DNA of 51,175 nucleotides from IMG/VR virus record IMGVR_UViG_3300036944_000268, positions 1 to 51,175 of that record; one strand, written 5' to 3'. This DNA is from a virus. The notes beneath the pieces were generated by a model. The model had not been told where the DNA came from. It did no database searches and saw only the letters and a list, made by a program, of their open reading frames with translations. The position numbers and the translations under genes were made by a program. Below, piece by piece: positions 22,062 to 50,187 of the stretch (positions are counted from its first letter, which is position 1; every line of letters starts with the position of its first letter).

Positions 22062-22064
22062 GAC

Positions 22065-31327: not shown

Positions 31328-31356
31328 ATTATACTCGTTTAGGTAAATTTAGTCAA
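31328..31356 (-). promoter_or_regulatory. Sigma70-type promoter with AAATTTA box for the hub/tip unit
   Basis: Minus strand: -35 TTGACT (complement of 31351-31356, 5/6), 17-bp spacer, -10 TATAAT (complement of 31328-31333). AAATTTA-TGC lies directly upstream of the -35. No TG extension here. Confidence 0.9.
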
Positions 31357-31376
31357 GCATAAATTTTATTTGGCAT

Positions 31377-31404
31377 AAAAAAGCCCCAGACTGGCTGGGG
31401 CTTT
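31377..31404 (-). terminator. Rho-independent terminator after the tape measure gene
   Basis: AAAGCCCCAG (31380-31389) pairs with CTGGGGCTTT (31395-31404). The A-run at 31377-31382 gives the U-tail on the minus-strand RNA. The tape measure stop is 3 bp away, and the hub promoter follows 20 bp later. Confidence 0.93.
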
Positions 31405-31406
31405 GT

Positions 31407-34400
31407 TTACGCTATTTTAACTTGTGAACGGGTATTCCATTCTTGTTGTTTGAAAGCATCTTCCGTTGCTGTACTAACAGCATTGGCATTCTTTATATTT
31501 GCATCGTAGTTTGTTGCTATTAAGTGTCCTGTTTGTTCTTTCTGATCTGAACGTAACTGAGATACTTCTTGTCTTAAAGCTTTAATCTCGGCTACTAATT
31601 CCTTAGTATTGAATAAGTCGTTACTTGCTGCATTAGAGTATACACGCCCAGGGTTTGTAAAGTCCACAAGTTCTGGCCCTTTTTCACCTACTAGCGATAT
31701 ACCTTTAGCTAAACCTCCTCTAGCATGTCCGGGTATTGTTATACCTGCGGCTATTGAACCAGAAGTAACTGCATCGCTTTGAGCACCTGTAGTAGTTTCT
31801 TGAGCTTTTAAGTATTTAGCTAGTAGCTCTGCAGTAGTTTGCGTTGCCTCTGAGGTTATTTTTAAGTAGTCTAATTGTTGTTGAGTTTCTATTTGTTGTG
31901 TGGATAGTAGTCCTGTAGTACTATCTAATAAGTCTGTAATTGTACTAAAGTCCGCAGCATACTGAGAACCACTAGCGTACATTTCTCTAGAACTAGCTAG
32001 GAAAATATCGGATACTGAACTTATTTTATCTACTGCAGCATTTCTGGTAGCTATTTCTGCTGCAGAGCTTGAGGCAGTAATTGCCACTTGAGCCTGTGCT
32101 GAAGTTTCTAGTAAATTGGACTTAGCTTGAGCGTACTTTTCAGCAGGAGTTAATGTTGAAACAGCTCCAGCAGTTAATGCAGCTTTATAGTTTTGTAGTG
32201 TTTTAATAGAACTAGTTAAAGTACTATTAGTACTAGTATAAGCTGCTTGAAGTTTATCGCGTAAAGCTATCTCATCAGTTAAAGCATTGATATATTTTTG
32301 ACGAGGTCTTAATAACTCATCCATTGCTTCTAGCTCTCTACTTCTAGACATTGCTAAAGCTTCGGAACTTTTACCAAGTAACTCATATATTTTCTGTTCT
32401 AGGTCTAATGACTTACCGCTAGATGCTGTAACTTCTTCCATTGCACTACTTAAAGCTATTAGTTTAGCATATGTAATGGCACTTTCTGCATTAGTTACTT
32501 TAAATCCTAGCACTAGGTCTTTAAATGTTTCCTTGGTTTTTACTCCATAAAACCCTAAAGATTCAAGTTCCTTGGTTAGAGCAGCTTGTTTAGGGGCCAG
32601 TCTTTCAGCTTCAGTTAAGAAGTTATCTGCAAAAGTCTTTGTATTATCAATAAAGCTGCTTAAACCACCAGCAGCAGTTATCATAGCATCCGAGAATGCA
32701 ATACCTGATAAACCGGTACCAATAGAGGCACGCCCTACACTGGTCATAGCTAGATTAACTTTATCCATGCCATCAACAACACGCATTGTTGTTTCTAACA
32801 TACCTTCACCGAACTTATTGTAGCTTTCTAAAGAAACAAACAGTGTAGAAGATGCAGTATCTAACATTGAACTAAGTATGCTATTTAAAGCTTCATCAAG
32901 TTCCTTACCTTTTAGACCTCTTAAAGAAGCTAGAGTAGTTACGTCTACTTGCGCTAATTTATCCATTACCTCACGACTAGTCATACCAAGTTTTTCGCCT
33001 GCGGTAATCATTAAATTACCTGCATTGTTAAATACAGCTTGAAGAGATTTCTGAATTTTAGGATCGAGATCGCCTAGTTGTTGACTTAGGGCTTGGCTAG
33101 TACTGCTCATCCATAGGAAGCTGCTAGTGCTAGTTGTTAGAACATCTTCATAAGTTTTTAGTGAACCTACTACGCCATTCATCATATCAGCAAAAGTGCC
33201 TGTTATTTTTAACCCGGCATCTGTGATCTGTTTAGTACTGCTACTACCAAATAATCCGCCTAAAATATTAAAACCAGACTCGCCTTCCTTGGTACCAAAC
33301 TGACTCCCACTACGTAAACCTACAACACCATAAACACCTTTAGCTACACCACTAATACCGTCTCTAACTTGTGATAGTAGTTCTACCATTTTATTAGAGT
33401 AAGATAAACCTTCAACTGTAGTAGCATTAAGTATATCTAATGAGTTAACGATTGATTGCGATTTAGCTTCTGTATCTCCAGATACTGTACCGGTACCTTG
33501 AGCAGTTTGGCGTTCTGCTGAAGTTTTTCCTGTCATGTCTACGGAGCCGCCGCCGCTAAAACCGCCTCCAACAAATGCAGCTATTGCAGCTGCTGCAATT
33601 GGTGGTCCAAATGGCCCCAGTGCAGCCATAAAGCTAGCATATATAGCAGGTATATTAATACCTATGCTTTCTAACGCCGAAGAAGCTTGCATAGCCAAGT
33701 CTTTTGCGTAACCTTCTGCTTTAGCTGCTTGTTCTTCTGTTAATAATCCCATTTTAATAGAAGACTGTTTTAATTCTCCTGCTAAACTTTGCGCCGAAGC
33801 TACCTTTTGCATGCCTGTTATGATTTTAAAAGCTGCAGTTTGTTCACCAAATATCTTCTTAGTAGAACTAAGTATATTTGCATCATTTTTTAATTTATCT
33901 TTTGCGTGCTTTTCATCTAGCTTCATTAGAGCTGTAGTTGCTTCTTTTCTTTTTTCGCTATCTTCAGGGGTTTTATCTCGCGCATCTTCTAATGCCTTTT
34001 TGTCCTGCAAATACTTAGTATCTTGCTGTGCCATAGATAATATTGCTTCGCCAGCTTTACCAATATTTGTCCCTAATTCTCCAAAAGCAGAAGTAAGACT
34101 ATCAGTAATATTTACCATTTTGTCCATGGATACAGCTTGTTCAGCTAGTAGTATTTTTTGTGCTTGAGTTAAAGTTATTGCTAGTTTTCTAGAAGTATTG
34201 CCTGCATCCATTACTGTTAAATGAGAACGCTCTTCGTCAGTGCCTCGTTTCTGGGCAGCATTTATATCTGCTAAAGAGGCTAGAGCTACTTGGTTAGAAG
34301 CTTTAGCAGCAGCTATTTGCTGTTCAGAACCTGTACCTGAGTTTATAAGAGCATTATTAGAAGCTATTTTATCATTGAAAGCTTTTTGTTGATCATTAAG

Positions 34401-37400
34401 TACGCCCATACTTATTGCTTGATCTTTTAAATAGTTAGATCTTTCTTCTGTATATTTACGATCTTCTGCAGCAAGTTTTAACCTATCAGATTGTTTTATG
34501 TAATCAGCTTCACTAATCGCACCTATTTCTTTTAGATTTGATAATCTAGCTTCGTCATCAGTATCACTAATAGATTTTAACTCTAGAGTATTTGCTCTTA
34601 ATATACGTTGGTGATCTTCTTCTATCTTAGCAATTGCAGCTTCACCAGTTTTACGCGCTTGATAATATTTATTAATTATCTGCGCTCTTTCCGACTCAAT
34701 TTTGTTTAAATTGGTAGCCCTATCAGCGGCAACTGTAGTTAGAGCTATATTTGCAGCGTTCGCGCGCAACTGCTCCTCATTAGACCTTCCAATATTATCA
34801 GATGTTCTTGAAGTAACAGAAGCTAAAGCCTCTTTTGCCCCAATTTCTTTAATATCCAAAGATATGCTTTCTTGTTTGGCTTTATTATCTAGTATATGTA
34901 AGTCATTTATTTGACTAGCTGTTTCTAAGGTACTATTATAAGTACCTAATAATGTTTTACTATTTGCTAAATCCGTGGAAGTTATTTGTAACCCTACGCC
35001 TTCACGCTGTACACCTTGTAATTCTCGTGTTTTTGCCTCAGTTTTTAAACCTACAGTTTTAGTAATATCAATACTTTTAAGCTGTTGAACAAGTCCTGCT
35101 AACTGCGAATCCTTACCAAAAGATAGATTAATAGACTCCTTTAAAAGTTTAATACCTGCTACAGCTTCTGGAGGTAGATAGTTAGGTATACCTACTGTAC
35201 CTCTACCACCACCTGTAACCATAGTTGCCTGGCTTGCTGCCTGTCCCGCTAAACCTCTTAGTTCTCTTGAGGAACCTGGTTCTGAGGAGTCTATCTTTCT
35301 TCTAGCAAATTGTACAGCAGCTAGTTCGCCCAATACTTTTGCATATACTAATGGGTCTCTAGTTTTTGTATCTGTTTCAAGTAACTTCTTTTCTTCTATT
35401 AAAGACAGCTCCCTAACTTTTAAGCCTAGGTCAATTATTGCATTTGTGTTAGCGTACCTAGCTTCAATATCAGCAATCTGTATTTTTACTTGTCTTGTAG
35501 CTACATCTGCTTCTAGTGCTGCAGTAGGTCCACCTGAAGATTTAATTAAATCAATATAACTTCTTGCTGAAGCTATAGCTGCTTCAGACAAGGCTTTAGC
35601 TAGACCTTTTCCTAGCATATCAAAACTTACTTTTGCCATTTCTGCAGCTATATTACCATACTTAGTAACTTCAATATCTGAAGCTTGTCTAGCTAATGAT
35701 AATCTTTTTCTTACTTCTGCAGTTCTTTGCTGTGCCTTTTCTAATGCTAAAGTTTCTGCTGCACTGAATTCAGCTACCTGTTCCGTTTGTACCGCATAAC
35801 CATCAGCGATACTTGCACTATTACTTTCGTATACTAAAGCTACATTGGCAAGTGCTTTAGATTCTTCAGCTAAGGCTAATGTTAGATCTTTAGCGGCCAC
35901 GGCTTGGGCTTTTGCCAAACTATCTAAATTATTTTTAGCTGAAATTAGTTGGTCTTGTACATTGGCGGGCAGTAGGGATAAAGTTTTTGTATCCTTAGCT
36001 AAATCCCTAAGTGCAGTTAATGCAGTGATAGGGTCCTGTAAAGACTCGGTTAATTTAGTAGCACCTTTTTGTAACTCTATACCCAGTTTACTAAAATCAT
36101 CAGTAGGTGTTAAAGCATTGCTTAAACTAGTGCTTTGTTTATCTATATCTGCTAAAGCATTTTTAAATCCTGTTAGGGACTCTGCAGCATTATTAGAGTT
36201 TCTACTAATATCGGTTAATAGTTTGCTTATATCTTTGGCTTTACTAGCTACAATGGTCTTATCGAGATTAGCTATAGACTGTTCAAACCCTTTAACACTG
36301 TTTACATCTATAGGCTGCCCAAAAATCTTATTTAAAGCATCTCTTGCTTTATTCTTAGCAGGACCTTCATCTAACATTTTGAAACTATCAATTACAGATC
36401 CAGATACGCTATCTATCAACTTATCTTTAGAACTTTTACCAACAACTCCCCAGATACCATCCCAAAACTTATCCCAGGGTCCTTGAGCTTCTTGAACTTT
36501 GTTGAACTTAAGAATAACGTTATCTAATGAGCCGGTAAGTTCGCCCAATGCCGTAGCTTTAGCCTGAATAGACTCTACACTAAAGTAGCTCAGAGGGTCT
36601 TTAGTATTAATCGCGTCTAGAGTTCTTCTTGTGTTATCAAAGGAATCATTTAAATTAGATAATGCATTTTTGTACTCTTCAGTTTGTTTTGCACTTTTAC
36701 TAAATATTGAATCTAATATTTCGAATGCAGCTATTGCCACACCTATCCACATAGCAAAACCTTGCAGAGCCGACATTAGATTAGTAGCCATAGCACTAGC
36801 TATAGCAAAAGTACCTGCTACTCTAGTTAAACCATTAGCTAATAATCCTGTGGCTTTTACAGGAGTACCGTCTGAGAGTACTTGTAGTCCTGCCTTACTT
36901 TGAGCTATCTCATTATTTAGCATTTTCCAAGCCGCTTTTGTGCCTGATATTGCTGCAGTTTCTGAGGTTATAGATAAGATTTGTCTTTTTGAAGCATTGC
37001 TGGTGGCCTTATCTAAGTTTTGTGCCATTATAGTACTATGGGCAAATCTTCTCTTATCGGCGTCTTCTCTGGCTTCTGAAGCTGCTGTACCTTTAGCTTC
37101 GCTTTCTGCTCTTAGTCTATCCCCTTCAGCAAGACTCTTCTCTAATATTTTTCCTTGAGTTTTATAAGTAGCTTTATCAGATTCTAACAAGCTTAATGAG
37201 CGTGCCTTAATTGCGGCAATATCTGCAGGAGTTTGTTCAAATATGCTCTTACGAGTTAAATCTTGCACATCTCTACCTACGATTTGTACGTTAGTACGCG
37301 TCTTTTTTAACTTATCTACTCTTTCTACTGTTTTTACTTCTCTCTGAAAGCTCTTTTCTGCTATATCAGCTGCTTCTGCATCACCTGCAGCTAGCCTATC

Positions 37401-38489
37401 GGTATTATCTCTAGATAGTTTCTGTAATCTAGAGAAAGACTCCTCTTGGGCCTGTTTAGCGGCGTTACGGTACATACCTAATGCAGGGATTGCTTGCTTT
37501 AAAAGTATTGAACCTACTGCTGCCAATGCTACAGTTAAACCTGTAGGGCTGGCGGATAGTGCCGACATTATAGGACCTAGTACTTTATTAAGTAGATCTA
37601 AGCCGCCTTGCATTAAATTATTAATCGAGGCAAGTACCTTGGAGTACGGATTAGTATCTAAACTAATACTACCAAATTTGCGTTCACCTTCATCCAATAC
37701 TGCATTTGCAAATGCCTGGCGTTTTTCAAAGTCACTTAAAGCACTAGCAGTTTTGCCAATACCACGAGCGTACGCCTCTTGTGCCGGAATAACGCGAGTC
37801 ATAATACCTAATTCATCCAATAGTTCTGGCTGAATTTTAATAATACCCTTAGTAATCCTATCCATAGAATCAGGAAGATCTCTACCTAATGCTAGAGACG
37901 CCTTTTTCGCTACTTCTGTCATTCTAATTATTGCGGTATTGGTCATACCGCCTGAACTTGCCATAGCGGTAGATGTCATAGCATCCCGCATAGAAATAGC
38001 ACCTTCAGTAACAGCCACCATTTGTTTAGCTAAACTACCTAGGTTTCTTCCCGATACTGCACCTAATTGATCTAAGCCTTTGATAAGGTTAGACGTATCC
38101 ATAGCTTTAGATAGGGCCGTAAATGCAGCACTAGCTGCATATAAGTTAGCTGCAAAAGTTGCATAGACGTGAACAAGCCCGCCCAAGCCTTGAGCTTGTG
38201 CAGCAAAATCTCGCCCACTAGCGCCAGTTTGACCTGCTAGTCCTCGACTTAGATTCGTATCACTTGCTCCACCACCAGGTTGAGCTGCCGCAGCTCTGTA
38301 AGCAGCAGACATTGGTTGGCTAGCTGCTACTCCTTGACGAGCCGCACTTGTTGCTACAGGTACACGGATACCTTGAGCTGCAGTACTGGCAGCCTGTAAA
38401 GTTTGTTTTAGTGCATGCGCGTCTTTATTCTTGTTAGCAATAGAGCCACCATCATCTAGTGTCATTCCTATTCTAATATCATTTGCCAT
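31407..38489 (-). CDS. Tail tape measure protein
   Basis: 2360 aa from ATG 38489, which has GAGGGAG upstream; an upstream in-frame start at 38525 is unlikely. It sets tail length and probably enters the host envelope with the DNA. Long Ala/Lys/Glu-rich helices are broken by hydrophobic segments near res. 326 (LTVALAAVGSILLKQAIPAL), 573 (FAMWIGVAIAAFEILDSIF) and 1630 (GPPIAAAAIAAFVGGGFSGG). A C-terminal GLAKGISLVGEKGPELVDF motif is common near the end of tape measures. No lysozyme or peptidase domain is evident. It forms its own transcription unit between a promoter and a terminator. Confidence 0.95.
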   Translation of the reverse strand: MANDIRIGMTLDDGGSIANKNKDAHALKQTLQAASTAAQGIRVPVATSAARQGVAASQPMSAAYRAAAAQPGGGASDTNLSRGLAGQTGASGRDFAAQAQGLGGLVHVYATFAANLYAASAAFTALSKAMDTSNLIKGLDQLGAVSGRNLGSLAKQMVAVTEGAISMRDAMTSTAMASSGGMTNTAIIRMTEVAKKASLALGRDLPDSMDRITKGIIKIQPELLDELGIMTRVIPAQEAYARGIGKTASALSDFEKRQAFANAVLDEGERKFGSISLDTNPYSKVLASINNLMQGGLDLLNKVLGPIMSALSASPTGLTVALAAVGSILLKQAIPALGMYRNAAKQAQEESFSRLQKLSRDNTDRLAAGDAEAADIAEKSFQREVKTVERVDKLKKTRTNVQIVGRDVQDLTRKSIFEQTPADIAAIKARSLSLLESDKATYKTQGKILEKSLAEGDRLRAESEAKGTAASEAREDADKRRFAHSTIMAQNLDKATSNASKRQILSITSETAAISGTKAAWKMLNNEIAQSKAGLQVLSDGTPVKATGLLANGLTRVAGTFAIASAMATNLMSALQGFAMWIGVAIAAFEILDSIFSKSAKQTEEYKNALSNLNDSFDNTRRTLDAINTKDPLSYFSVESIQAKATALGELTGSLDNVILKFNKVQEAQGPWDKFWDGIWGVVGKSSKDKLIDSVSGSVIDSFKMLDEGPAKNKARDALNKIFGQPIDVNSVKGFEQSIANLDKTIVASKAKDISKLLTDISRNSNNAAESLTGFKNALADIDKQSTSLSNALTPTDDFSKLGIELQKGATKLTESLQDPITALTALRDLAKDTKTLSLLPANVQDQLISAKNNLDSLAKAQAVAAKDLTLALAEESKALANVALVYESNSASIADGYAVQTEQVAEFSAAETLALEKAQQRTAEVRKRLSLARQASDIEVTKYGNIAAEMAKVSFDMLGKGLAKALSEAAIASARSYIDLIKSSGGPTAALEADVATRQVKIQIADIEARYANTNAIIDLGLKVRELSLIEEKKLLETDTKTRDPLVYAKVLGELAAVQFARRKIDSSEPGSSRELRGLAGQAASQATMVTGGGRGTVGIPNYLPPEAVAGIKLLKESINLSFGKDSQLAGLVQQLKSIDITKTVGLKTEAKTRELQGVQREGVGLQITSTDLANSKTLLGTYNSTLETASQINDLHILDNKAKQESISLDIKEIGAKEALASVTSRTSDNIGRSNEEQLRANAANIALTTVAADRATNLNKIESERAQIINKYYQARKTGEAAIAKIEEDHQRILRANTLELKSISDTDDEARLSNLKEIGAISEADYIKQSDRLKLAAEDRKYTEERSNYLKDQAISMGVLNDQQKAFNDKIASNNALINSGTGSEQQIAAAKASNQVALASLADINAAQKRGTDEERSHLTVMDAGNTSRKLAITLTQAQKILLAEQAVSMDKMVNITDSLTSAFGELGTNIGKAGEAILSMAQQDTKYLQDKKALEDARDKTPEDSEKRKEATTALMKLDEKHAKDKLKNDANILSSTKKIFGEQTAAFKIITGMQKVASAQSLAGELKQSSIKMGLLTEEQAAKAEGYAKDLAMQASSALESIGINIPAIYASFMAALGPFGPPIAAAAIAAFVGGGFSGGGSVDMTGKTSAERQTAQGTGTVSGDTEAKSQSIVNSLDILNATTVEGLSYSNKMVELLSQVRDGISGVAKGVYGVVGLRSGSQFGTKEGESGFNILGGLFGSSSTKQITDAGLKITGTFADMMNGVVGSLKTYEDVLTTSTSSFLWMSSTSQALSQQLGDLDPKIQKSLQAVFNNAGNLMITAGEKLGMTSREVMDKLAQVDVTTLASLRGLKGKELDEALNSILSSMLDTASSTLFVSLESYNKFGEGMLETTMRVVDGMDKVNLAMTSVGRASIGTGLSGIAFSDAMITAAGGLSSFIDNTKTFADNFLTEAERLAPKQAALTKELESLGFYGVKTKETFKDLVLGFKVTNAESAITYAKLIALSSAMEEVTASSGKSLDLEQKIYELLGKSSEALAMSRSRELEAMDELLRPRQKYINALTDEIALRDKLQAAYTSTNSTLTSSIKTLQNYKAALTAGAVSTLTPAEKYAQAKSNLLETSAQAQVAITASSSAAEIATRNAAVDKISSVSDIFLASSREMYASGSQYAADFSTITDLLDSTTGLLSTQQIETQQQLDYLKITSEATQTTAELLAKYLKAQETTTGAQSDAVTSGSIAAGITIPGHARGGLAKGISLVGEKGPELVDFTNPGRVYSNAASNDLFNTKELVAEIKALRQEVSQLRSDQKEQTGHLIATNYDANIKNANAVSTATEDAFKQQEWNTRSQVKIA

Positions 38490-38542
38490 AATTTCTCCCT
38501 CATCAATACGCAAAAAATTACGCATTATTATTAGTAGCTACC

Positions 38543-38571
38543 ATTATAGCACTTATGGATTGTAGTGTCAA
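38543..38571 (-). promoter_or_regulatory. Consensus sigma70 promoter for the tape measure gene
   Basis: Minus strand: -35 TTGACA (complement of 38566-38571, 6/6), 17-bp spacer, -10 TATAAT (complement of 38543-38548, 6/6) with a TGC extension. An AATTTTA variant of the upstream box precedes the -35. It lies 22 bp downstream of the terminator tail. Confidence 0.93.
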
Positions 38572-38593
38572 TGGTTAAAATTTTCCTCCCAAT

Positions 38594-38627
38594 AAAAAAA
38601 CCCCTGTACCATTAAGTACAGGGGTTT
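38594..38627 (-). terminator. Rho-independent terminator after the tail chaperone genes
   Basis: AAACCCCTGTAC (38598-38609) pairs with GTACAGGGGTTT (38616-38627). The A-run at 38594-38600 gives a U7 tail on the minus-strand RNA. Confidence 0.95.
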
Positions 38628-38628
38628 C

Positions 38629-39410
38629 TTATTTTGTCTTAGGTTTTGCATCCGCAATGGCTTTTGACCTATGCGTATCAATAATCCCTATTAACTCATA
38701 CTGAGTGCGTCTATCTTCGACCGGTACCTCAAGCAGGTCTAGAATATCTAGTAGTCCTGCATAGGTTTTACCCATATATACACCATTCATCGTATCCCAC
38801 TCATCTCGAAGCTTTTGATATATACCAAGAGCTTCTTGAACATCTAAAAAGAAATCCTCATATTCTATAGGGATCTCTTCTTCGACTGGCTCAGTGCCTA
38901 AAGCTTCGCACATTTCAAAGTACGTATCTTTAGTCATTGATATAGTGCTATTAGCAAAGTAGGAAGCTAGCTGGCGATTTAACTCGCGGTACTGGTCTTC
39001 GTGAAATTTGACAGCTCAGTTACTGTTTCAGAAATGAAAGCATCAAAATTAGCTGAAGCTTGCATCAAGAACAAAGCATTGTCCTGATCGTAAGGTAGAT
39101 CGCTATCCATATCTTGTCCGGTTAGATCAACTGGAGCCAGCTGTTCTAGGTAAGATAGTTTGAAGCCTGACCAACCTTTAATACATGCATTAACGTATAA
39201 TTGCAAGAATAACTTGTCATCAAGTTCTTCGAGCGGTTGACGGTTTTTAAATACCGTTTTAGTTGCTTTCTTACGGATACCTACTAAGGTTTCGCGTGAT
39301 AGAAATACTACGTTAATTTTAAAGCCATTGAACCCTGGGTAGTCTACTTCGACCGATTTTGACGGTACCAATAGAGACTTAAGGCTTAGAGCTGCGTTTG
39401 TTGTTGCCAT
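38629..39410 (-). CDS. Tail assembly chaperone GT fusion made by -1 frameshift
   Basis: Predicted 260-aa product: 136 residues of the G frame from 39410, a -1 slip at AAATTTC (minus strand, 39009-39003; zero frame A|AAT|TTC), then 124 residues ending at 38629. After the slip the new frame reads HEDQYRELNRQLASYFANST before the ATG at 38937, so the second frame is open and protein-like well upstream of that ATG. This matches the G/GT arrangement of lambda-like phages, where both products chaperone the tape measure. A stop-to-start distance of 41 bp and the weak context of ATG 38937 favour frameshift expression. Confidence 0.85.
38979..39410 (-). CDS. Tail assembly chaperone G (zero-frame product)
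   Basis: 143 aa. NAALSLKSLLVPSKSVEVDY, FLSRETLVGIRKKATKTVFK and KLFLQLYVNACIKGWSGFKL resemble small tail chaperones encoded between tail tube and tape measure. The frame stops at 38979, 21 bases past the slippery heptamer. In related systems the short form is made in excess over the fusion. The start ATG 39410 follows TAAAAGGACC. Confidence 0.85.
   Translation of the reverse strand: MATTNAALSLKSLLVPSKSVEVDYPGFNGFKINVVFLSRETLVGIRKKATKTVFKNRQPLEELDDKLFLQLYVNACIKGWSGFKLSYLEQLAPVDLTGQDMDSDLPYDQDNALFLMQASANFDAFISETVTELSNFTKTSTAS
39003..39009 (-). promoter_or_regulatory. Slippery heptamer for -1 ribosomal frameshifting
   Basis: Minus-strand AAATTTC in the zero frame A|AAT|TTC fits the X|XXY|YYZ rule (X=A, Y=T, Z=C). 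Slippage moves translation into the open downstream frame described for the GT product. Confidence 0.8.
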
Positions 39411-39441
39411 GAAAATGGTCCTTTTATTATGAAACAGAGAG

Positions 39442-39472
39442 AAAAAGAGGTGGGGGAGATCAAACCCCCACC
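39442..39472 (-). terminator. Partial terminator after the tail tube gene
   Basis: GGTGGGGG (39449-39456) pairs with CCCCCACC (39465-39472) around an 8-nt loop. The minus-strand RNA continues with UCUUUUUCU. No promoter follows, yet the chaperone genes lie downstream, so it probably attenuates rather than stops. Confidence 0.8.
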
Positions 39473-39480
39473 AGGGAAAA

Positions 39481-40692: not shown

Positions 40693-40710
40693 TTTATTTC
40701 CTTTTTATTT

Positions 40711-40761
40711 AGTATCTCGGTACTAGACTAGATATTTATCTGTATTCGTACCTCTGATACT
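40711..40761 (-). promoter_or_regulatory. Long imperfect hairpin in the leader of the tail tube gene
   Basis: Three nested inverted-repeat pairs: AGTATC/GATACT (40711-40716 with 40756-40761), GGTAC/GTACC (40719-40723 with 40748-40752) and AGATA/TATCT (40730-40734 with 40737-40741), separated by internal loops of 6/6 and 2/3 nt. In RNA this is a long stem just upstream of the Shine-Dalgarno. No U-run and no promoter hexamers are seen. It could stabilise the message or be an RNase III site. Confidence 0.7.
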
Positions 40762-40763
40762 GG

Positions 40764-42595: not shown

Positions 42596-42597
42596 AA

Positions 42598-43224
42598 TTA
42601 ATTATAGCTCGCAGTATATAGATCTAGGATACGCTTAATGTGTGCAGGGAAGTGGGTATTACTCAAATACTCAATCTGCATCGAATTAGGGTTAACGTTC
42701 TTATGTGTGTGCACAGAAGAATCATTTTTAAGGTAGTAAGCTATAATATCTAAGATACATAGTTTTAAGTCTTGTGGAATCTCTAGATACCCAGCAGTAT
42801 ATGTAATTATATAACCGTTGATAGCTTCTGGAAAGATTTTAACTTTGCTGGAACCGTATGGTGCATAACCATATGACTCTAGTGGTACTGCATCCATTAT
42901 TAGTGCTCGAATACTGTTAGTAGCCTTAGATAGTACATAATTAGTATACTCTGTTAGAGTAGTATACGTGGCGCCAAAGTCTGTAGAATACTCTAAGCTA
43001 GCAACGGACAGTACTGGGTACTCAGATAATTCAATAGCATCTGTTCCGCCTTCGCTGTATTCAACCTTAGCATCGTCTACGTAATCAATAAAAGTTCTGC
43101 GGCAGATACTTTTAACTAACTCGCTAACTTTTGGTATAATTGCATCTATAGCAGAATCACTAGTAGTACTAGAGATGCCCATGTAGGCCTTATATTCTGC
43201 TCTTGTAACTAGTGGTAGTCCCAT
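42598..43224 (-). CDS. Head-tail connector (HK97 gp6-like)
   Basis: 208 aa from ATG 43224, with AAAGGAAT upstream; the open frame extends to 43290 but that would start inside a terminator hairpin. LVTRAEYKAYMGISSTTSDS, IIPKVSELVKSICRRTFIDY and YEL-type beta strands (IELSEYPVLSVASLEYS) match the gp6-like DNA-packaging connector family: an N-terminal helical domain followed by a beta insert and C-terminal helices. These form the ring below the portal. Place in the operon after the capsid gene is standard. Confidence 0.87.
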   Translation of the reverse strand: MGLPLVTRAEYKAYMGISSTTSDSAIDAIIPKVSELVKSICRRTFIDYVDDAKVEYSEGGTDAIELSEYPVLSVASLEYSTDFGATYTTLTEYTNYVLSKATNSIRALIMDAVPLESYGYAPYGSSKVKIFPEAINGYIITYTAGYLEIPQDLKLCILDIIAYYLKNDSSVHTHKNVNPNSMQIEYLSNTHFPAHIKRILDLYTASYN

Positions 43225-43267
43225 ATTTATTCCTTTATCTTTTACATAGGCTGCACGCAACCAATGT

Positions 43268-43293
43268 AAAAGACGGGACCGAAGTCCCATCTT
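43268..43293 (-). terminator. UUCG-loop partial terminator after the capsid gene
   Basis: GGGAC-CGAA-GTCCC on the plus strand (43275-43288) is GGGAC-UUCG-GUCCC in the minus-strand RNA, an extra-stable tetraloop. An outer AAGA/TCTT pair (43270-43273 with 43290-43293) extends it, and UUUU follows. No promoter follows; connector genes must be read through it. Confidence 0.82.
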
Positions 43294-43306
43294 TATTTAC
43301 TTAGAC

Positions 43307-44623
43307 TTAAGCAACGTAACGTAGAGCGGCAACACCAGCTCCGAGGTTAGTAGCGATTTGAGTCATACCAGTACGTAGGCTGGCTACTAGAACACGACGT
43401 TGAGTTTCAACGAGTTCTTGTGTATCCATACGTAGACCGCGTTGATTTCCAACGATGAAGTTAGGTGTGTAAACTGCGATTGCACCAACGTTAGTCAATG
43501 TAGCGGCAAGGTTAGTACCATTAGCAGCAGCAGGAAGTTCAGCAGAAACTAGAACTGGGCTGTTACCGATTTGACCGATTTGACCTGTTAGCAAGGTAGC
43601 CTGTGGGCCAACTTGGTTCATTGTTTGGAAAGCTGTATCTTCTAGCAAGTTGTAGTATGTATCGGTATTAACGATAAATGTTACTTCAGCTGGATCTAGA
43701 CCTAAAGCACCTAGGGCTTTACGTAGAGCGCGCATGTTAGCCATAGTTACTGCAGTAGCTGCTGGGGTAGTAACTGAAGATACACCTGCGTAAGCTGAAA
43801 GACCTTTAACTGGGTCAGAACCTGAACCAGCACCTAACAAGAATGCTTTGTCGATAGCACGAGCTGTACGACGAACCATTGCATCACGAACGATAGGCAT
43901 CAAAGCGATCAAGCTATCTTCTTCTTCTTCGTAAGCCATATATTCGTTGGTAGCAACTTTATATGCATTCAAAGTGATTTCTTTCAACTGATGCGTAGCG
44001 TTACCACCGGCACTGCTGGTAGAACCAAACTGTGCGTTAGTAACCCAAGTTGCGTAACCTGCTTCTGGGTTTACTGGAATCGTCATAACGTTTGTTTGCA
44101 TAGCAACGTTACGTAGGATTGGAGCAACCACTAGCTTACGACGAACTTCAGCTTCCATAGTCATAGAAACTTCAAGTTCCCATGTAGCTGATGGCAAGTG
44201 AGCACCAGTTTTTTCCATCAATTGACGACCAAATTTGGTGTCTTGGATTGACTTACCAGTAATGCGAGAAAGGATAACTGCCTTCTCTTTGTCAGCGTAT
44301 GAAACATCAGCAGACTTGCCTTCGGCGAAAGTCATTTTTGACTTTTGCATTGCTTCGATTTCAGCAGCTTTTTCAGTTAGAGCAGTCTGTAGACCTTCTA
44401 GAACTGACTTTGTGCTAGCAGCTTGATCAGCGAAACGCTTCTCAACTTCAGCCATTAGTTTCTCAGCACCGGTTTCGGTAGGAGTAGCAAGAGCTACAGC
44501 TGCCTTGATGCGAGCTTGCACTTCAGCTTCTTGAGCATCAGCAAGGGATTTAGCAGTAGCTTGATCGGCCAATGCTTTAGCAGTAGCATCAGCTACCATT
44601 TGTTTAATTTCGTCTTGGGTCAT
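43307..44623 (-). CDS. Probable internal product: scaffold-major capsid protein
   Basis: 438 aa starting at the in-frame ATG 44623 (M196 of the fusion). GAAGGAAG lies 5-12 bases upstream, a far better Shine-Dalgarno than most in the window. The product starts MTQDEIKQMVADATAKALAD, exactly where the delta-like scaffold begins, after an acidic Ser/Lys linker. Capsids need hundreds of capsid subunits per a few dozen proteases, so internal initiation would supply the stoichiometry. Inference; not shown by sequence alone. Confidence 0.68.
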   Translation of the reverse strand: MTQDEIKQMVADATAKALADQATAKSLADAQEAEVQARIKAAVALATPTETGAEKLMAEVEKRFADQAASTKSVLEGLQTALTEKAAEIEAMQKSKMTFAEGKSADVSYADKEKAVILSRITGKSIQDTKFGRQLMEKTGAHLPSATWELEVSMTMEAEVRRKLVVAPILRNVAMQTNVMTIPVNPEAGYATWVTNAQFGSTSSAGGNATHQLKEITLNAYKVATNEYMAYEEEEDSLIALMPIVRDAMVRRTARAIDKAFLLGAGSGSDPVKGLSAYAGVSSVTTPAATAVTMANMRALRKALGALGLDPAEVTFIVNTDTYYNLLEDTAFQTMNQVGPQATLLTGQIGQIGNSPVLVSAELPAAANGTNLAATLTNVGAIAVYTPNFIVGNQRGLRMDTQELVETQRRVLVASLRTGMTQIATNLGAGVAALRYVA

Positions 44624-45208
44624 TTCGACTTCCTTCTGTGATTTGCTGTCTGCTTCCTTAGAGGATTCTAGCCCTTTAGCTGATTCGCTTTTGGGTGCAA
44701 ACTGCGATTTAAATTTTTTGTACTCATCAGCATCTGAAAATGCTTTAGACAAACTAAAAAGAGTGTTTTGGTTACAAGGAACTGATACAACTGATATTTC
44801 TACCAGCTCCAACTCTTTGATAACAAATAACTCTGCTACAGCATTATATTCCGCATCCATGATGCGGAATCCAACGCTAAATGCGGTTAATACTTCATCT
44901 TTTACTAAACTAAAAATCTCAGCAGCTGCTGAAATTCTTGCTTTAATCCATAGACCTTTAGAATCAATCCTGTAATCTACCATACGACCGATGGGGTCAT
45001 CGTGGTCATGTTGAGATAATAGGATGGGGTTCTTTAGGTAATTCTGAATACCGGCTTCCCAAACACTGCTAGGAATTACATCTCCCGATCTATCCGTATC
45101 ATTGGTACTTGCGTAGCCTTCAATATAGATAGAGTCAATGGTGTCGCCTGCTGAAGGTGTTTGTTTAGTAAAAGTACTATTTACGAATAATACTTTTTCT
45201 TTACTCAT
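43307..45208 (-). CDS. Fused HK97-type prohead protease, scaffold and major capsid protein
   Basis: 633 aa in one frame. Res. 1-155 are an S78/HK97-type prohead protease: IEGYASTNDTDRSGDVI, His in LLSQHDHDDPIG (H67 or H69), Ser in TAFSVGF (S111), Glu in LELVEISVVSVP (E137). Res. 196-300 are an Ala/Lys/Glu coiled coil like the HK97 delta (scaffold) domain (IKQMVADATAKALADQAT). Res. about 305-633 are an HK97 major capsid fold (VRRKLVVAPILRNVAMQTNV, AFLLGAGSGSDPVKGL, FIVGNQRGLRMDTQ). In HK97 the protease and capsid are separate genes. A strong internal start at M196 would yield scaffold-capsid alone. Confidence 0.92.
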   Translation of the reverse strand: MSKEKVLFVNSTFTKQTPSAGDTIDSIYIEGYASTNDTDRSGDVIPSSVWEAGIQNYLKNPILLSQHDHDDPIGRMVDYRIDSKGLWIKARISAAAEIFSLVKDEVLTAFSVGFRIMDAEYNAVAELFVIKELELVEISVVSVPCNQNTLFSLSKAFSDADEYKKFKSQFAPKSESAKGLESSKEADSKSQKEVEMTQDEIKQMVADATAKALADQATAKSLADAQEAEVQARIKAAVALATPTETGAEKLMAEVEKRFADQAASTKSVLEGLQTALTEKAAEIEAMQKSKMTFAEGKSADVSYADKEKAVILSRITGKSIQDTKFGRQLMEKTGAHLPSATWELEVSMTMEAEVRRKLVVAPILRNVAMQTNVMTIPVNPEAGYATWVTNAQFGSTSSAGGNATHQLKEITLNAYKVATNEYMAYEEEEDSLIALMPIVRDAMVRRTARAIDKAFLLGAGSGSDPVKGLSAYAGVSSVTTPAATAVTMANMRALRKALGALGLDPAEVTFIVNTDTYYNLLEDTAFQTMNQVGPQATLLTGQIGQIGNSPVLVSAELPAAANGTNLAATLTNVGAIAVYTPNFIVGNQRGLRMDTQELVETQRRVLVASLRTGMTQIATNLGAGVAALRYVA

Positions 45209-45228
45209 CTTACTCCTTAATATATGCT

Positions 45229-46422
45229 CTAAGTAGCTGGCGTATCTGGCTTTTTAGGTGCACCACCCAAACTAGGGTTTACTGCTGAACCTGCAATATT
45301 TGCCGGTATACGTAAGTCATCATGCCCGGCTATTGGAGTATATCTTAGTTCAACCCTAGCTTCGTTAGCAGAAATAATTCCACCATTAACTAATGTTGTA
45401 TTATACGCAGCTATATCTTTTAACTCTGGCTGTAAGGCTGAAACGTTAGTAGTAATAGCATCAATATCGTATCCGAAGTATCTCTCCATTGCTGAAGAAT
45501 ATTTCCGAATAATTGGCATAATTGTTTCTAAATAAAATAAGCGCATATTAGGGGAAATATTTGCATTGTTTCCGCCGTCTAGTAATATGCTAGGCACTCC
45601 GAGCGCTTTTAATATTTTAATGTCATGGGACTTGATAGAGTTATCAAAATCCATATCTTGAAAACTGGCGTTTAATAGATTACTTGGCTTTAGTCCAGAA
45701 TCTAGAATCATTGGCTTTCTAGCACCGTTTTTAGGGCTATAACCTGAAATCCAGTTTTGAATTGTTTTTTGCTTAGCAACTTGGCTTAGCGTATTATCTG
45801 TTGTTAGTACCATTCCAGGTACTGCACCGTTCTCAAAGAAAGTCTCTTGGAACGCCTGCATTTTATATAAAATCTCTATAGACCTATTAGCAGATACTAA
45901 TCTTGAAGTACCGCGATAGATAGAAGTGCTACAAGTATCTCTAATATGAATGATTTCGTCAGGCTTAAAATTCTGCATATTATTGTAGGTGTATCCTGCA
46001 ATAAAAGTCTTAGCGTCTGGCAGAACCTGCATACTTGCAGCTGGTAGATGATATAAGAAAGCGCCATCGAAGTAAATGAAGATGTTACCTTCTAGGATAA
46101 AATCTGTAAAGATACTTGATCTAAAATCTTGTGCTGACTGATATGGGTTGGGTCTGAAGTTCAGTAGCGTAGCTAATGTCTTTTGACGCATACCTGGACG
46201 AATATCTGAGGAGATCTTGTCTTTAATATCGAAGTCTAAACTAGCGCAACCTGCTACAATCATACTTGTACCACGATTAACTGTTTCTAGTTTCTTGAAA
46301 GAAGCCCTATAACTAGCAGGAGCGTCAGACCCTACGATTATACCTTCTTGTCTAATAATTATCTCTTGCGCGGGGTTAAGTTTCTCTCGAAAGTAACTCC
46401 CTACGTTATTGTACCATGCCAT
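45229..46422 (-). CDS. HK97-family portal protein
   Basis: 397 aa. YRASFKKLETVNRGTSMIVA, NPYQSAQDFRSSIFTDFILE, NIFIYFDGAFLYHLPAASM, IIHIRDTCSTSIYRGTSRL, FFENGAVPGMVL, KILKALGVPSILLDGGNNA and LEYL-type ends (MRLFYLETIMPIIRKY) are characteristic of the dodecameric HK97-type portal, the channel for DNA packaging and tail docking. A C-terminal Pro/Ala tail is low-complexity. It is 8 bp downstream of the HNH gene and 20 bp upstream of the protease-capsid gene. Confidence 0.95.
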   Translation of the reverse strand: MAWYNNVGSYFREKLNPAQEIIIRQEGIIVGSDAPASYRASFKKLETVNRGTSMIVAGCASLDFDIKDKISSDIRPGMRQKTLATLLNFRPNPYQSAQDFRSSIFTDFILEGNIFIYFDGAFLYHLPAASMQVLPDAKTFIAGYTYNNMQNFKPDEIIHIRDTCSTSIYRGTSRLVSANRSIEILYKMQAFQETFFENGAVPGMVLTTDNTLSQVAKQKTIQNWISGYSPKNGARKPMILDSGLKPSNLLNASFQDMDFDNSIKSHDIKILKALGVPSILLDGGNNANISPNMRLFYLETIMPIIRKYSSAMERYFGYDIDAITTNVSALQPELKDIAAYNTTLVNGGIISANEARVELRYTPIAGHDDLRIPANIAGSAVNPSLGGAPKKPDTPAT

Positions 46423-46430
46423 AAGTGCCC

Positions 46431-46865
46431 TTAGGTAAATTGGCTAAAAAACGAGCCTACAACAGCAGAACTCTTACTTACCTCTTTACCAGATGCTTTA
46501 TCCCGTTGAATGTCAACCCAGCGTGCTTGACGCTCAGCTGAACCGGCTGGAGGAGCTTTTCCGAATATCCGATGTAATGCGACATGATGTTTATTGCATA
46601 AAGTACGAACTAAGTCATATAACTCAGTCTGATGTTCGGCAATAAATTCATCCCTAACTTCGAGTATCCCAGCATCTGTGGAAATATCGTAATGTTTTCT
46701 CGTAGCCCAGCTTTCCAGCAGGATTGTAATAGAATGAAAGTGATGTAGCTCTAGGTCGCCCTGAGTACCACAAATATAGCAACTGTCCTTCTTATCGTAG
46801 GCTGCCTTAGCTTTATCTCTTACGTGTTTGACGGCGATACGCTTATTCTCTGTATTTTTAGCCAT
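46431..46865 (-). CDS. HNH endonuclease (terminase-associated type)
   Basis: 144 aa. CYICG (a C-x2-C half of a zinc site), GDLELHHFHS (the HH of HNH), LCNKHHVALHRIFG (N and second H) form an HNH domain over res. about 27-105. HNH proteins encoded beside terminase and portal genes in HK97-lineage phages assist terminase cleavage, so this one may act in packaging rather than homing. First gene after the divergent promoter at 46896-46924. Confidence 0.85.
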   Translation of the reverse strand: MAKNTENKRIAVKHVRDKAKAAYDKKDSCYICGTQGDLELHHFHSITILLESWATRKHYDISTDAGILEVRDEFIAEHQTELYDLVRTLCNKHHVALHRIFGKAPPAGSAERQARWVDIQRDKASGKEVSKSSAVVGSFFSQFT

Positions 46866-46895
46866 ATTTTGTACGCACGTTTTAGTAATGCTCCA

Positions 46896-46924
46896 ATTAT
46901 ACCACCCATGCAGCGGTATGTCAA
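46896..46924 (-). promoter_or_regulatory. Consensus sigma70 promoter with AAATTTA box for the head unit
   Basis: Minus strand: -35 TTGACA (complement of 46919-46924, 6/6), 17-bp spacer, -10 TATAAT (complement of 46896-46901, 6/6) with a TGG extension. AAATTTA lies 4 bp upstream of the -35. It is divergent from the plus-strand promoter at 46964-46992. Confidence 0.93.
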
Positions 46925-46963
46925 TATATAAATTTTTTATGCTCTCATACCCTAAATTTATGC

Positions 46964-46992
46964 TTGCCGCGAGGCCTTGCTTATGCTATAAT
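46964..46992 (+). promoter_or_regulatory. Sigma70-type promoter with AAATTTA box for the GIY-YIG cassette
   Basis: -35 TTGCCG (46964-46969, 4/6), 17-bp spacer, -10 TATAAT (46987-46992) with a TGC extension; AAATTTATGC lies directly upstream of the -35, identical to the element at 31357-31366. It drives a plus-strand gene pair set inside the minus-strand late region. Confidence 0.85.
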
Positions 46993-47011
46993 ACATCAAA
47001 GGAACACGATT

Positions 47012-47593
47012 ATGACATCAGGAATATATCAGCTAAATTTCGATAACCAGGCTTTCTATATCGGACAATCTGTAGATATGGAGACTAGGTGGAAGCAGCA
47101 CTCCGATAAACTTAAGAAAGGTACCGCTGCTGCTAAAATGCAGGATGCGTATCACCAGTTAGGTATGCCGTTTGCTGAGATTCTTGTAAGGTGCCATAAA
47201 GACCATCTAGACACTATGGAGAACTATTTTATACATATGCGTAAGGCTATGCCTAACTGCTTAAATACTAGTGCTCCTAAGCTGGATCCTAATATAAATT
47301 ATAGCTGGATGCTAGACAATCCACAACTATTGCAATACTCTGCATTTGATATTATGGCGCAGTATATAGAGCAGTATCACGAGCATAATAGTTTACAAGA
47401 AAAACACGATGATTTAAAGCATAACTTCAATAAAGAGTATATGCTTCACCAAGCAGCAACCGAACTTAAAGAGGGTAAAGATGAAAATGCAGAACTGGTT
47501 AGAGCATATCACGCTAGGCTTCATGCCGCGCAAGACCGACTTAATAAACTTAACAGTAGAGGCTTCTTTGGAAGGCTATTCAACTATGACTAA
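47012..47593 (+). CDS. GIY-YIG nuclease (putative homing-type endonuclease)
   Basis: 193 aa from ATG 47012 (AAAGGAA 7 bp upstream); the longer frame from 46964 begins inside the promoter. GIYQL (res. 4-8) and FYIGQS (res. 15-20) with an Arg in DMETRWKQH, a Glu in LDTMENYFI and Asn in PNCLNTS give the GIY-YIG core. The rest is a helical, charged region (YIEQYHEHNSLQEKHDD) likely for DNA binding, then a cationic end. Encoded opposite to the late genes, with its own promoter, and co-transcribed with the 55-aa protein (8-bp overlap). Probably a moron-like or intergenic homing element. Confidence 0.85.
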   Translation: MTSGIYQLNFDNQAFYIGQSVDMETRWKQHSDKLKKGTAAAKMQDAYHQLGMPFAEILVRCHKDHLDTMENYFIHMRKAMPNCLNTSAPKLDPNINYSWMLDNPQLLQYSAFDIMAQYIEQYHEHNSLQEKHDDLKHNFNKEYMLHQAATELKEGKDENAELVRAYHARLHAAQDRLNKLNSRGFFGRLFNYD

Positions 47594-47753
47594 TAAACAG
47601 CAGATTAAAGCACTAGATTATGTAATGGGCTTAATTAAGCATTACCCGTCTAGTGCTTACGCATATAACGTATATCGTCTACTAAAAACCACACGAGAAG
47701 AAAAATACAAAAGATTACCATGGTATAAGCGGTTGTTTATCCACCGATGGTAA
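47586..47753 (+). CDS. Small cationic protein coupled to the GIY-YIG gene
   Basis: 55 aa from ATG 47586, which overlaps the nuclease stop by 8 bp. Rich in Lys, Arg, Tyr and helical (MTNKQQIKALDYVMGLIKHY, then LLKTTREEKYKRLPWYKRL). No family recognised. It is convergent with and overlaps the 3' end of TerL by 17 bp, so the cassette ends within terL coding sequence. Confidence 0.72.
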   Translation: MTNKQQIKALDYVMGLIKHYPSSAYAYNVYRLLKTTREEKYKRLPWYKRLFIHRW

Positions 47754-49065
47754 ACGTGTAAATAGCGTATCGCACAGCGTCAGCCATGTGAGATGCCATT
47801 CCATGCTCTGGACGCTCAGTTGTTACTGAATCGCGACCATCCCAGCGGTATTGGTCAAACATGAACAATGTATGTTCGCAATGGGGAGATACTTTAATCC
47901 TACCCTGTTCCACTAAAGTCTGTACTAGCGCGATGCCGTCTAGTACGGACTTTTTTGCTTTTATGGTAGCAATATCGTATGTGTAGGCTAAGTCAGCAGC
48001 AGTTTGAGCAGCTGCGGAGTCAATGAAGATGTTCTCAATTGACCACTTAGTAATTAGCTCATTTAGCCGTACGACGTGCCCCGCAGTCGTAGCCTGTGCT
48101 TCTTGGTACTCGTCTACAATGTGATAACAATCGTCAGCCGGTGAATACACAACCACGCAGAATGCAGTAGGGTCTTTGTAACCAGGGTCAAGCCCTGCAA
48201 TCACTTCATCACCATCTCGCTGTACATAATCTAGTACATGAGTATCTTTATCAAGCCCATAGATCTGACCCTCGTACACGCTAAAGGAAGCCATGTATTC
48301 TTGTTCAAACTCGGCTTTAGACATTACAGACTTAGCCTCTTGAACGTCACGCTCGCTCATACGTGGGTTTTCACTATAGTCCGCAGTGATACTAGCCCAC
48401 TCGGGGAAGTTCTCTGAAAAACCACGATCAAAGAATCGACTAAACCAGTTACCGCGTCCGCGGGGTGTACTAATAAAGATTGCCTTCGAACCCGGCTTAT
48501 CCAGTGTAGGACGCAGCGCAATATTAAAAGCCTCTTCACCACCTGAACCCAATGCAGCCTCATCAAAGATAATCAGGTCATACGAACGGCCAACACTACT
48601 ATCCACAGTAGACAATGAACCAAGTCTAATAGTAGACCCATTCTTTAATTCTAACACACGATCTTTTACGTTATCACGAGCCATTTCCAGGTCAAAGCTG
48701 CGAATCAAATGCCTTTGCAATTCAAATGAGATACTGCTCAAGTTATAATTCGGCGATATAATCAATATATTACACCCAGGCACAAGCATCACTAGCTGTC
48801 CAATAACATTAGCGATGTAGGTCTTTCCAAGACGCCTAGCTAGCGCAGCACAAATAAACCTATAACGTGGATTATTAACTGCATTAATTAACGCAATCTG
48901 GGCGCGGTTAATTTGTTCCCAAGCCGTCGAAGGCTTCCTAGTCAATGGATCCTCGGCCGGTAATAGCTTCAAATAATTTACAATAGGTAGTTTAATGAAC
49001 CTAGTAGCAACTGGAAACTCTGTAATCGTTTCACGATCAATATCGGGCCTAGAAATTGTTAGCAT
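47737..49065 (-). CDS. Terminase large subunit (TerL)
   Basis: 442 aa. Walker A-like RRLGKT (res. 77-82), Walker B LIIFDEA (about 164-170), the C-motif region IFISTPRGRGNWFSRFF, and an RNase-H-like nuclease part: AGLDPGYKDPTAFCVVVY (first catalytic Asp), FIDSAAAQTAAD (second Asp) and ASHMADAVRYAIYTF. It powers packaging and cuts concatemers. A single frame, with no intron. Its 3' end overlaps the convergent plus-strand gene by 17 bp, and no terminator was seen after it. Confidence 0.96.
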   Translation of the reverse strand: MLTISRPDIDRETITEFPVATRFIKLPIVNYLKLLPAEDPLTRKPSTAWEQINRAQIALINAVNNPRYRFICAALARRLGKTYIANVIGQLVMLVPGCNILIISPNYNLSSISFELQRHLIRSFDLEMARDNVKDRVLELKNGSTIRLGSLSTVDSSVGRSYDLIIFDEAALGSGGEEAFNIALRPTLDKPGSKAIFISTPRGRGNWFSRFFDRGFSENFPEWASITADYSENPRMSERDVQEAKSVMSKAEFEQEYMASFSVYEGQIYGLDKDTHVLDYVQRDGDEVIAGLDPGYKDPTAFCVVVYSPADDCYHIVDEYQEAQATTAGHVVRLNELITKWSIENIFIDSAAAQTAADLAYTYDIATIKAKKSVLDGIALVQTLVEQGRIKVSPHCEHTLFMFDQYRWDGRDSVTTERPEHGMASHMADAVRYAIYTFTIGG

Positions 49066-49108
49066 ACATATAACATAAAAAATACAATGATTATTAATAA
49101 AGCTAGCA

Positions 49109-49597
49109 TTATTTTGGTACCGCGTCTAAGTTTACCAGTTGATTAATTAGCTGACCATACTTAGAGCCATCCGACCCGTTGATCTGCACATTTACTTGAT
49201 TCTTAACATTAGTAGCTTGTTGTACCTTTTCAAGCTCAATCTGGCGAGCTAAAAGTTCCATCGACATTTTATGCGATAGTGCTAAAATCTCGATAATATC
49301 CTTGCTGCTTCCAACATCTGCCTCCTCCATATCCTGGAACTTCTTTTTGATGATAGCATCCATCGCAGCGCGCATCTTAAAGCGATTATTGAATCCAACA
49401 TCAAAGAACACTTGGTCAATATACGCTCGTACGTCTTTACGCTGAAGAGTTTGGGTGACTAGGGATTGTGGGATATTTAGGACACTTGCGACGTCTGCGG
49501 CATCTTGGTTCTGTAGATAACAGTTCGCGATCTCAAGCGATTCGGGCGATATGTCAAGCGTTTCAGCGGGGGTCGTGGCAGGAAGGTTCTGGGACAA
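49109..49597 (-). CDS. Terminase small subunit (TerS)
   Basis: 162 aa. An N-terminal helix-turn-helix-like part (EIANCYLQNQDAADVASVLN then IPQSLVTQTLQRKDVRAYID, about res. 23-62), a helical central domain (NNRFKMRAAMDAIIKKKF, IIEILALSHKMSMELLARQI) and a flexible tail. It recognises phage DNA for packaging. The likely start is TTG 49597: GAGG stands 9-12 bases upstream, and the next in-frame ATG (res. 76) would remove the HTH. It lies 43 bp before TerL. Confidence 0.85.
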   Translation of the reverse strand: MSQNLPATTPAETLDISPESLEIANCYLQNQDAADVASVLNIPQSLVTQTLQRKDVRAYIDQVFFDVGFNNRFKMRAAMDAIIKKKFQDMEEADVGSSKDIIEILALSHKMSMELLARQIELEKVQQATNVKNQVNVQINGSDGSKYGQLINQLVNLDAVPK

Positions 49598-49623
49598 TTG
49601 GGGTACCTCGGGTAATTTGATAC

Positions 49624-49653
49624 ATTATATCATTTTTAGCAATTTAGGGTCAA
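49624..49653 (-). promoter_or_regulatory. Sigma70-type promoter with AAATTTA box for terS-terL
   Basis: Minus strand: -35 TTGACC (complement of 49648-49653, 5/6), 18-bp spacer, -10 TATAAT (complement of 49624-49629) with a TGA extension. AAATTTA lies 4 bp upstream of the -35. Confidence 0.9.
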
Positions 49654-49665
49654 GGGGTAAATTTA

Positions 49666-50109
49666 TTAAGCCTTGGCAAATTCGCCATTTAGTTCATTAT
49701 TTCTAGTATCATATGCTAATTTAGCTTCTTCTACTGTAGTATAGGTACCTAAGGAGTACGTTATGCCTTTATGATATAGTTTTGCTCTAAATCTTCCCTG
49801 TACTTGAGTTACACCTTTAGGTAGACCTATCTTTGATTTACCTACTGAATTAGCATTATTTTGCTGTCTAGTAGCTAGACGTAAGTTTTCTATTCTATTA
49901 TTTAAACTATCTCCGTCTATATGATCTATTAATGTACCTTCAGGTATAGGCCCTTTATACATTTCCCAGATTAGTCTATGGGCTCGATATTCTTTTCCGT
50001 CTTTACGGACACGCACATATCCATCTCTATCTAGGTTACAGTAAATATGTCCGGTTTTCTTATTTAATAGCAGGCCGTCGTCATATTCATAAAGTTCATT
50101 TAAGTTCAT
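49666..50109 (-). CDS. HNH homing endonuclease with AP2-like DNA-binding domain
   Basis: 147 aa from ATG 50109 (26 codons after an open-frame extension that begins in promoter DNA). N-terminal NUMOD-like start (YEYDDGLLLNKKTGHIYCNL), an HNH_3 domain (YRAHRLIWEMYKGPIPEG then IDHIDGDSLNNRIENLRLAT), and a C-terminal AP2-type part (KGVTQVQGRFRAKLYHKG, YTTVEEAKLAYDTRNNELNG). Free-standing homing endonucleases of this class are common in phages. It is bracketed by two similar promoters at 50132 and 49624. Confidence 0.9.
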   Translation of the reverse strand: MNLNELYEYDDGLLLNKKTGHIYCNLDRDGYVRVRKDGKEYRAHRLIWEMYKGPIPEGTLIDHIDGDSLNNRIENLRLATRQQNNANSVGKSKIGLPKGVTQVQGRFRAKLYHKGITYSLGTYTTVEEAKLAYDTRNNELNGEFAKA

Positions 50110-50131
50110 AAAATTCCATAAGTTAAATTTA

Positions 50132-50160
50132 ATTATACCACTTAAGGAAACTTTAGTCAA
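50132..50160 (-). promoter_or_regulatory. Sigma70-type promoter with AAATTTA box for the HNH-AP2 gene
   Basis: Minus strand: -35 TTGACT (complement of 50155-50160, 5/6), 17-bp spacer, -10 TATAAT (complement of 50132-50137) with a TGG extension. AAATTTA lies 4 bp upstream of the -35. Confidence 0.92.
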
Positions 50161-50187
50161 CATGTAAATTTGTTCCTGGGGGCTCAT

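Follow-up and report, generated by a model that had tools for sequence, protein, structure and literature searches.

A/T box and composite late signature in the promoters of an uncultured T5-like phage

The window analysed here is a whole virus record (G000) of 51,175 bases, in which promoters on both strands share the heptamer AAATTTA just upstream of the -35 hexamer. The first-pass annotation took this box to be either an UP element or the site of a phage or host activator, giving one coordinated late regulon without a phage polymerase. The question is therefore what reads the box, and whether it marks late promoters as such. Apparent from the DNA itself are the box, its fixed place, a composite late signature of which it is one component, and a T5-like gene order. 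The late timing of these promoters would follow from gene content and from T5 P-G25.

The phage and its promoters

No nucleotide relatives of the window were found among isolated phages. Its terminase is 48% identical to those of Vibrio T5-like phages and 43% identical to that of T5. A blastp search with T5 proteins recovers the T5 late order, comprising T5.156, TerL, T5.153, portal, a protease/major head fusion, T5.146, MTP, T5.143 and the tape measure, while homologues of dUTPase and phoH are located at the opposite end. By this late gene order the window is part of a T5-like phage. The head maturation protease and major head protein occupy a single fused gene (43307-45208, minus strand), compared with two genes in T5. 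Relatives were collected from IMG/VR via the portal, terminase and T5.143 homologue, and ten records were read whole; the order from T5.156 to the tape measure is seen in the window and in the relatives. The sole genome contig found with this terminase is L496 (CAIQND010000432.1), which is 3.4 kb long and belongs to a Methylococcaceae MAG; its terminase is 99% identical to that of the window, and its T5.156 promoter is very similar. Its presence in this MAG gives a weak hint of a methanotroph host. Host promoters were considered as a comparison and set aside, since the MAG contains just three TTGAC-N18-TATAAT sites, of which one belongs to the phage.

Promoters are termed late or early here according to gene content. 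The T5.153-like gene and the portal operon lie 3' of a late promoter at 46896-46942 (minus strand), consisting of GC (46941-46942), AAATTTA (46929-46935), TATA, TTGACA (46919-46924), a spacer GC (46910-46911), TG and TATAAT (46896-46901); its orthologous region was sampled in 40 nonredundant relatives. The late promoter 5' of the tape-measure gene (38543-38589, minus strand) consists of GG, the box AAATTTTA (38576-38583), TTGACA, a spacer CC, TG and TATAAT. A terminator hairpin (38598-38627) lies directly 5' of it, and orthologues occur in ∼33 nonredundant relatives. This promoter had been listed as a variant with AATTTTA, but it reads AAAATTTTAACCA before TTGACA, and thus AAATTT is present there too. 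A third late promoter, 3' of the tape-measure gene and in the place of T5 P-G25 (31328-31374, minus strand), consists of GC, AAATTTA-TGC-TTGACT (box 31360-31366), a spacer CC and TATAAT. It has both G/C pairs and lacks TGn, and a terminator stem (31382-31402) lies directly 5'.

The T5.156-like gene, which adjoins TerL, is preceded by a late promoter at 49624-49671 (minus strand), comprising GC, AAATTTA-CCCC-TTGACC (box 49658-49664), an 18-bp spacer containing GC, TG and TATAAT; a very similar promoter is found in the MAG contig L496. Upstream of this gene is an HNH endonuclease gene (49666-50109, minus strand; phrog_99, E 1.9e-50) with a promoter of its own (50132-50178, minus strand), which contains AAATTTA-CATG-TTGACT (box 50165-50171), a spacer CC, TG and TATAAT, and in which the upstream G/C pair is only half kept (CA). 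The listed reading frame of the HNH gene starts at 50187, upstream of this promoter; translation more probably begins at an in-frame ATG at 50109, which fits the promoter better. On the plus strand, a promoter-like site (46946-46992; AAATTTA-TGC-TTGCCG with the box at 46954-46960, then TG and TATAAT) precedes a GIY-YIG-type homing endonuclease gene (47012-47593, plus strand; phrog_7168, E 1.1e-7). This site, listed at 46964, has a poorer -35 (TTGCCG) and is missing both fixed G/C pairs, placing it outside the late class. Promoter-like sites with strong hexamers and no AAATTTA box, absent from the first-pass annotation, are present at 22061 (minus), 50354 (plus) and 50959 (minus). The first of these is a tail-gene promoter (22033-22079, minus strand), which carries the late signature with the T-tract ATATTTTTTTGTC replacing AAATTTA, and has similar sites in six relatives.

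Other promoter types were also noted. An early-region class (G001 36000-86200, and the early regions of G002, G004 and G005) has the -35 TTGAA[TC] with a C immediately 5' (78%), G/C shifted to -17/-16 before the -35, and an A/T-rich discriminator like the ATATT of T5 early promoters. GGCGC-type elements, in which TTGACA-N17/18-TATAAT is followed by TTGGCGCC, occur in the window (∼50913-50977, minus strand) and in G001, G002, G007, G008, G009, L038 and L040, several per genome and on the pre-early gene side, and have no A/T box. Many of them contain an inverted repeat with arms that co-vary between copies (CCGATTTTA / TAAAATCGG in the window, CCAATATTATA / TATAATATTGG in others). An origin from T5 nick sites (RGCGC) was considered and rejected, as TTGACA and TATAAT are absent around the nick sites. 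Near GGCGC elements, G001 (32880-33128, E 2.5e-4) and G002 (455-745, E 2.7e-5) encode small proteins with weak similarity to a portion of T5 D5.

The A/T box and the UP element

As had been claimed, AAATTTA is found 3 or 4 bp 5' of a TTGNC -35 at all five named places, and each has TATAAT as the -10 after a spacer of 17 or 18 bp. The pattern AAATTTAN{2,6}TTGNC has 5 matches in the window compared with 0.31 expected, a number reached in 0 of 100 shuffles, and the reversed arrangement of box and -35 has none. As a word, AAATTTA is not over-represented (30 in the window versus 21.7 expected), so that it is the position next to the -35 that is enriched, contradicting a random placement of the box. 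The gap between AAATTT and the -35 is 5 in 22 of 26 sites and 6 in the remaining 4, and with a 17-bp spacer the box occupies -47 to -40. At orthologous promoters the box is conserved while the adjoining positions vary. The 60% A/T content of the window and the lack of enrichment of the word would suit a box that is a chance by-product of A/T-rich intergenic DNA, but the fixed distance, the shuffles and the conservation at orthologous promoters make such an origin extremely improbable. The ten bases AAATTTATGC, reported as identical at 31357-31366 (minus) and 46954-46963 (plus), are indeed so, and are best explained as the box extended by a few bases that match by chance or through copying.

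For comparison across the group, a late set of 83 nonredundant promoters was picked by -35 and -10 alone, from three orthologous positions and hence not independent, together with 37 early-region promoters of four relatives and, as a control, 56 promoter-like sites inside genes. AAATTT is present in 60/83 late, 12/37 early-region and 2/56 intragenic sites, and an uninterrupted A/T run from -12 to -6 ahead of the -35 in 64/83, 25/37 and 6/56, respectively. AAATTT is thus commoner at late promoters, yet an A/T box is common to both classes. Variants accepted as the box include AAAAATTA, AAAAAAT, AATTTTA, AAAAATT, AATTTT and a T-tract. The 22061 family, made up of the window promoter and its probable counterparts in six relatives, has a T-tract or a related A/T tract as the box. 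Promoters with a T-tract in place of AAATTTA and with both G/C pairs kept are found in the window (22033-22079, minus strand) and at G001 118683, G005 23331 and G006 40238. This replacement, with both G/C pairs staying, points to A-tract shape rather than an exact word.

Most annotated T5 promoters also have an A/T tract directly 5' of the -35, such as AAAAAATTTAT-TTGCTT in P-N25. Among 39 T5 sites, A occupies -10 to -7 before the -35 in 79-95% and T occupies -5 in 90%, which puts the T5 box ∼3 bp nearer the -35 than that of the window. The T5 box promoters are mostly at early genes. These observations bear on whether AAATTTA could by itself be a dedicated operator or activator site that works without the alpha subunit. 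Strong positional conservation and a near-palindromic core (TAAATTTA, 8 versus 3.3 expected) would agree with such a site, but the many variants including a T-tract, and the occurrence of the same box in T5 and at early promoters, argue against it, and we consider it improbable.

The reading that we favour, with reasonable confidence, is that AAATTTA is the proximal UP-element subsite of host sigma70-type promoters for the virion genes of a T5-like phage. The proximal UP subsite extends from -46 to -38, with an A-tract at -44 to -41 (PMC5664571). The box lies at -47 to -40 in this phage group, with seven positions all A/T in 64 of the 83 late promoters, and differing A/T tracts are tolerated there (AAATTT, AAAAATT, AATTTT and the T-tract of the 22061 family). 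The second A/T tract of a full UP element (-57 to -47) is not seen, as 83-84% of late promoters have G/C at -53 and -52. Compared with the E. coli UP element (Estrem consensus), the A/T tract at -47 to -40 and its fixed distance from the -35 are alike, whereas the core here is AAATTT instead of an A run, the distal subsite is interrupted at -53/-52, and the role of alpha is a probable one. The T5 sigma70 promoters P-N25, P-H207, P-G25 and P-D/E33 are similar in having an A/T region near -43, a 17-bp spacer and TATAAT, and in their use of host sigma70. T5 P-G25 and the window promoter at 31328 share the same genomic place, 3' of the tape-measure gene. T5 differs in that most of its early promoters have TTGCTT or TTGCTA, and in having no match to the late core signature.

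According to this proximal UP-element reading, the virion genes would be transcribed by host RNA polymerase from strong sigma70-type promoters. The C-terminal domain of the alpha subunit may bind the narrow minor groove of the box, beside sigma region 4 on the -35, which would strengthen initial binding of the polymerase. The box would then serve as a general strength element, found in the early as well as the late promoters of this phage group, and in T5. In the late promoters it is combined with TTGAC, TGn, TATAAT and a spacer of 17 bp, and two fixed G/C pairs make these promoters a recognisable class. The UP element proposed in the first-pass annotation is thus the best reading, favoured by the distance, the A-tract character, the T-tract substitution and the same box in T5 sigma70 promoters, and binding by alpha is its likely basis. 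Sequence alone does not distinguish alpha from a different protein recognising A/T shape.

The composite late signature

The late signature consists of G/C pairs at -53/-52 and -22/-21, the A/T box, TTGAC, a 17-bp spacer, TGn and TATAAT. In the late set (n=83), G/C is found at -53 in 83% and at -52 in 84%, TTGAC in 99%, and the T and G of TGn before the -10 in 96% and 95%. Among the late promoters with a 17-bp spacer, G/C occupies spacer positions 7 and 8 (-22 and -21) in 91% each. The upstream pair is present in 57/83 late, 10/37 early and 5/56 intragenic sites, and the spacer pair in 68/83, 4/37 and 8/56, with 0/18 in the GGCGC-type elements. At the individual late positions the spacer pair is found in 35/40, 25/33 and 8/10. 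Its recurrence at six places within the window (50160, 49653, 46924, 38571, 31356 and 22061) gives this result partial independence. A distance of 31 bp, or ∼three helical turns, separates the two pairs. GC, GG and CC all occur as the pair, and GC with GC is the commonest combination, with no clear covariation between the pairs.

A core search using only the -35, spacer pair, TG and -10, and thus blind to the upstream part, was applied to the window and ten relatives. It returned 28 sites, all intergenic, and none in the reversed control or in T5. Eighteen are before homologues of T5.156, T5.153 or the tape measure, and seven are of the 22061 type, for which tail genes 3' were established gene by gene in the window only. 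The other three are at G001 56786, at G005 54661 before ligA, and at G005 27315 before phoH. The signature is thus strongly associated with late genes, though not exclusive to them. If an 18-bp spacer is allowed too, the window contains five core sites, compared with none in Markov sequences. Extending the search to other fetched T5-like loci gave 83 nonredundant sites; AAATTT was present in 62 of these, and the upstream pair in 58. Two Vibrio T5-like stretches gave no core match. Among the IMG/VR matches listed, box promoters from other viral contigs are mostly missing the pairs (spacer pair 0.19).

The idea of one late regulon holds for this late promoter set. It does not hold for AAATTTA as its sole mark, as early-region promoters have an A/T box in 25/37 and AAATTT in 12/37, and T5 has the box at early genes. 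The plus-strand site falls outside the class, which is set by TTGAC, TGn and the two G/C pairs, features absent from the first-pass annotation. The A/T box itself is ordinary.

Control of late transcription

The UP-element reading accounts for the strength of these promoters, not for their timing. Near-consensus promoters with an UP element should act from the start of infection, so lateness needs other control. The same reading leaves both G/C pairs unexplained, since G/C at -53/-52 would break a normal distal UP subsite. In T5, where others have shown P-G25 to be a late promoter, PG25 and PJ5 transcripts appear 30 min into infection; all promoter classes use the sigma70 polymerase, and what underlies the switch is described as unknown (PMC7472727). 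The G/C pairs may well be functional, and are candidate elements for the control of timing.

Consistent with the proposed absence of a phage polymerase, the single-subunit RNA polymerase family PF00940 was found in 0 of 9 records, which may be incomplete, with the T7 positive control detected. Sigma region 4 likewise had no match in the phage records, again possibly incomplete, with working controls. A protein like the polymerase-binding T5.026 had no match in the relatives, an absence that carries no weight, since the Vibrio T5-like phages gave none either.

A late-promoter-specific phage or host protein might read the composite site of G/C pairs and box, activating the late genes or holding them back. 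The fixation of the pairs in late promoters (upstream 57/83, spacer 68/83) and their rarity in early and intragenic sites would fit such a protein, as would the lack of the signature in T5 and the two Vibrio T5-like stretches and its rarity in other viral box promoters; the timing problem, moreover, demands some regulator. On the other hand, the -35 and -10 are near consensus, unlike those of typical activator-dependent promoters, the tolerance of GC, GG and CC is unusual for base-specific reading, and the two pairs show no clear linked change. No reader protein was identified for the G/C pairs. Homologues of T5 D5, which is annotated as a requirement for late transcription, occur in three relatives. 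D5 is also found in T5 and in Vibrio T5-like phages, all of which lack the signature, and this speaks against D5 as the specific reader. Phage Mu offers a parallel, in that Pm has a short element 5' of the -35 that is common to co-ordinated phage promoters. Pm depends on the binding of Mor to inverted repeats centred at -43.5 (PMC4390567), whereas the window promoters have a near-consensus -35 and no such repeat was seen. A late-promoter-specific protein is on balance the less likely reading. We suggest, tentatively, that a dedicated factor, specific to this clade among T5-like phages, could read the A/T box along with both G/C pairs, which lie around the -35 with a spacing of 31 bp, controlling late transcription by the host polymerase without a phage polymerase or sigma factor.

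By sequence, the composite late signature tells most late promoters from early ones across a large group of uncultured T5-like phages, and it opens the early-to-late switch of T5-like phages to experiment.
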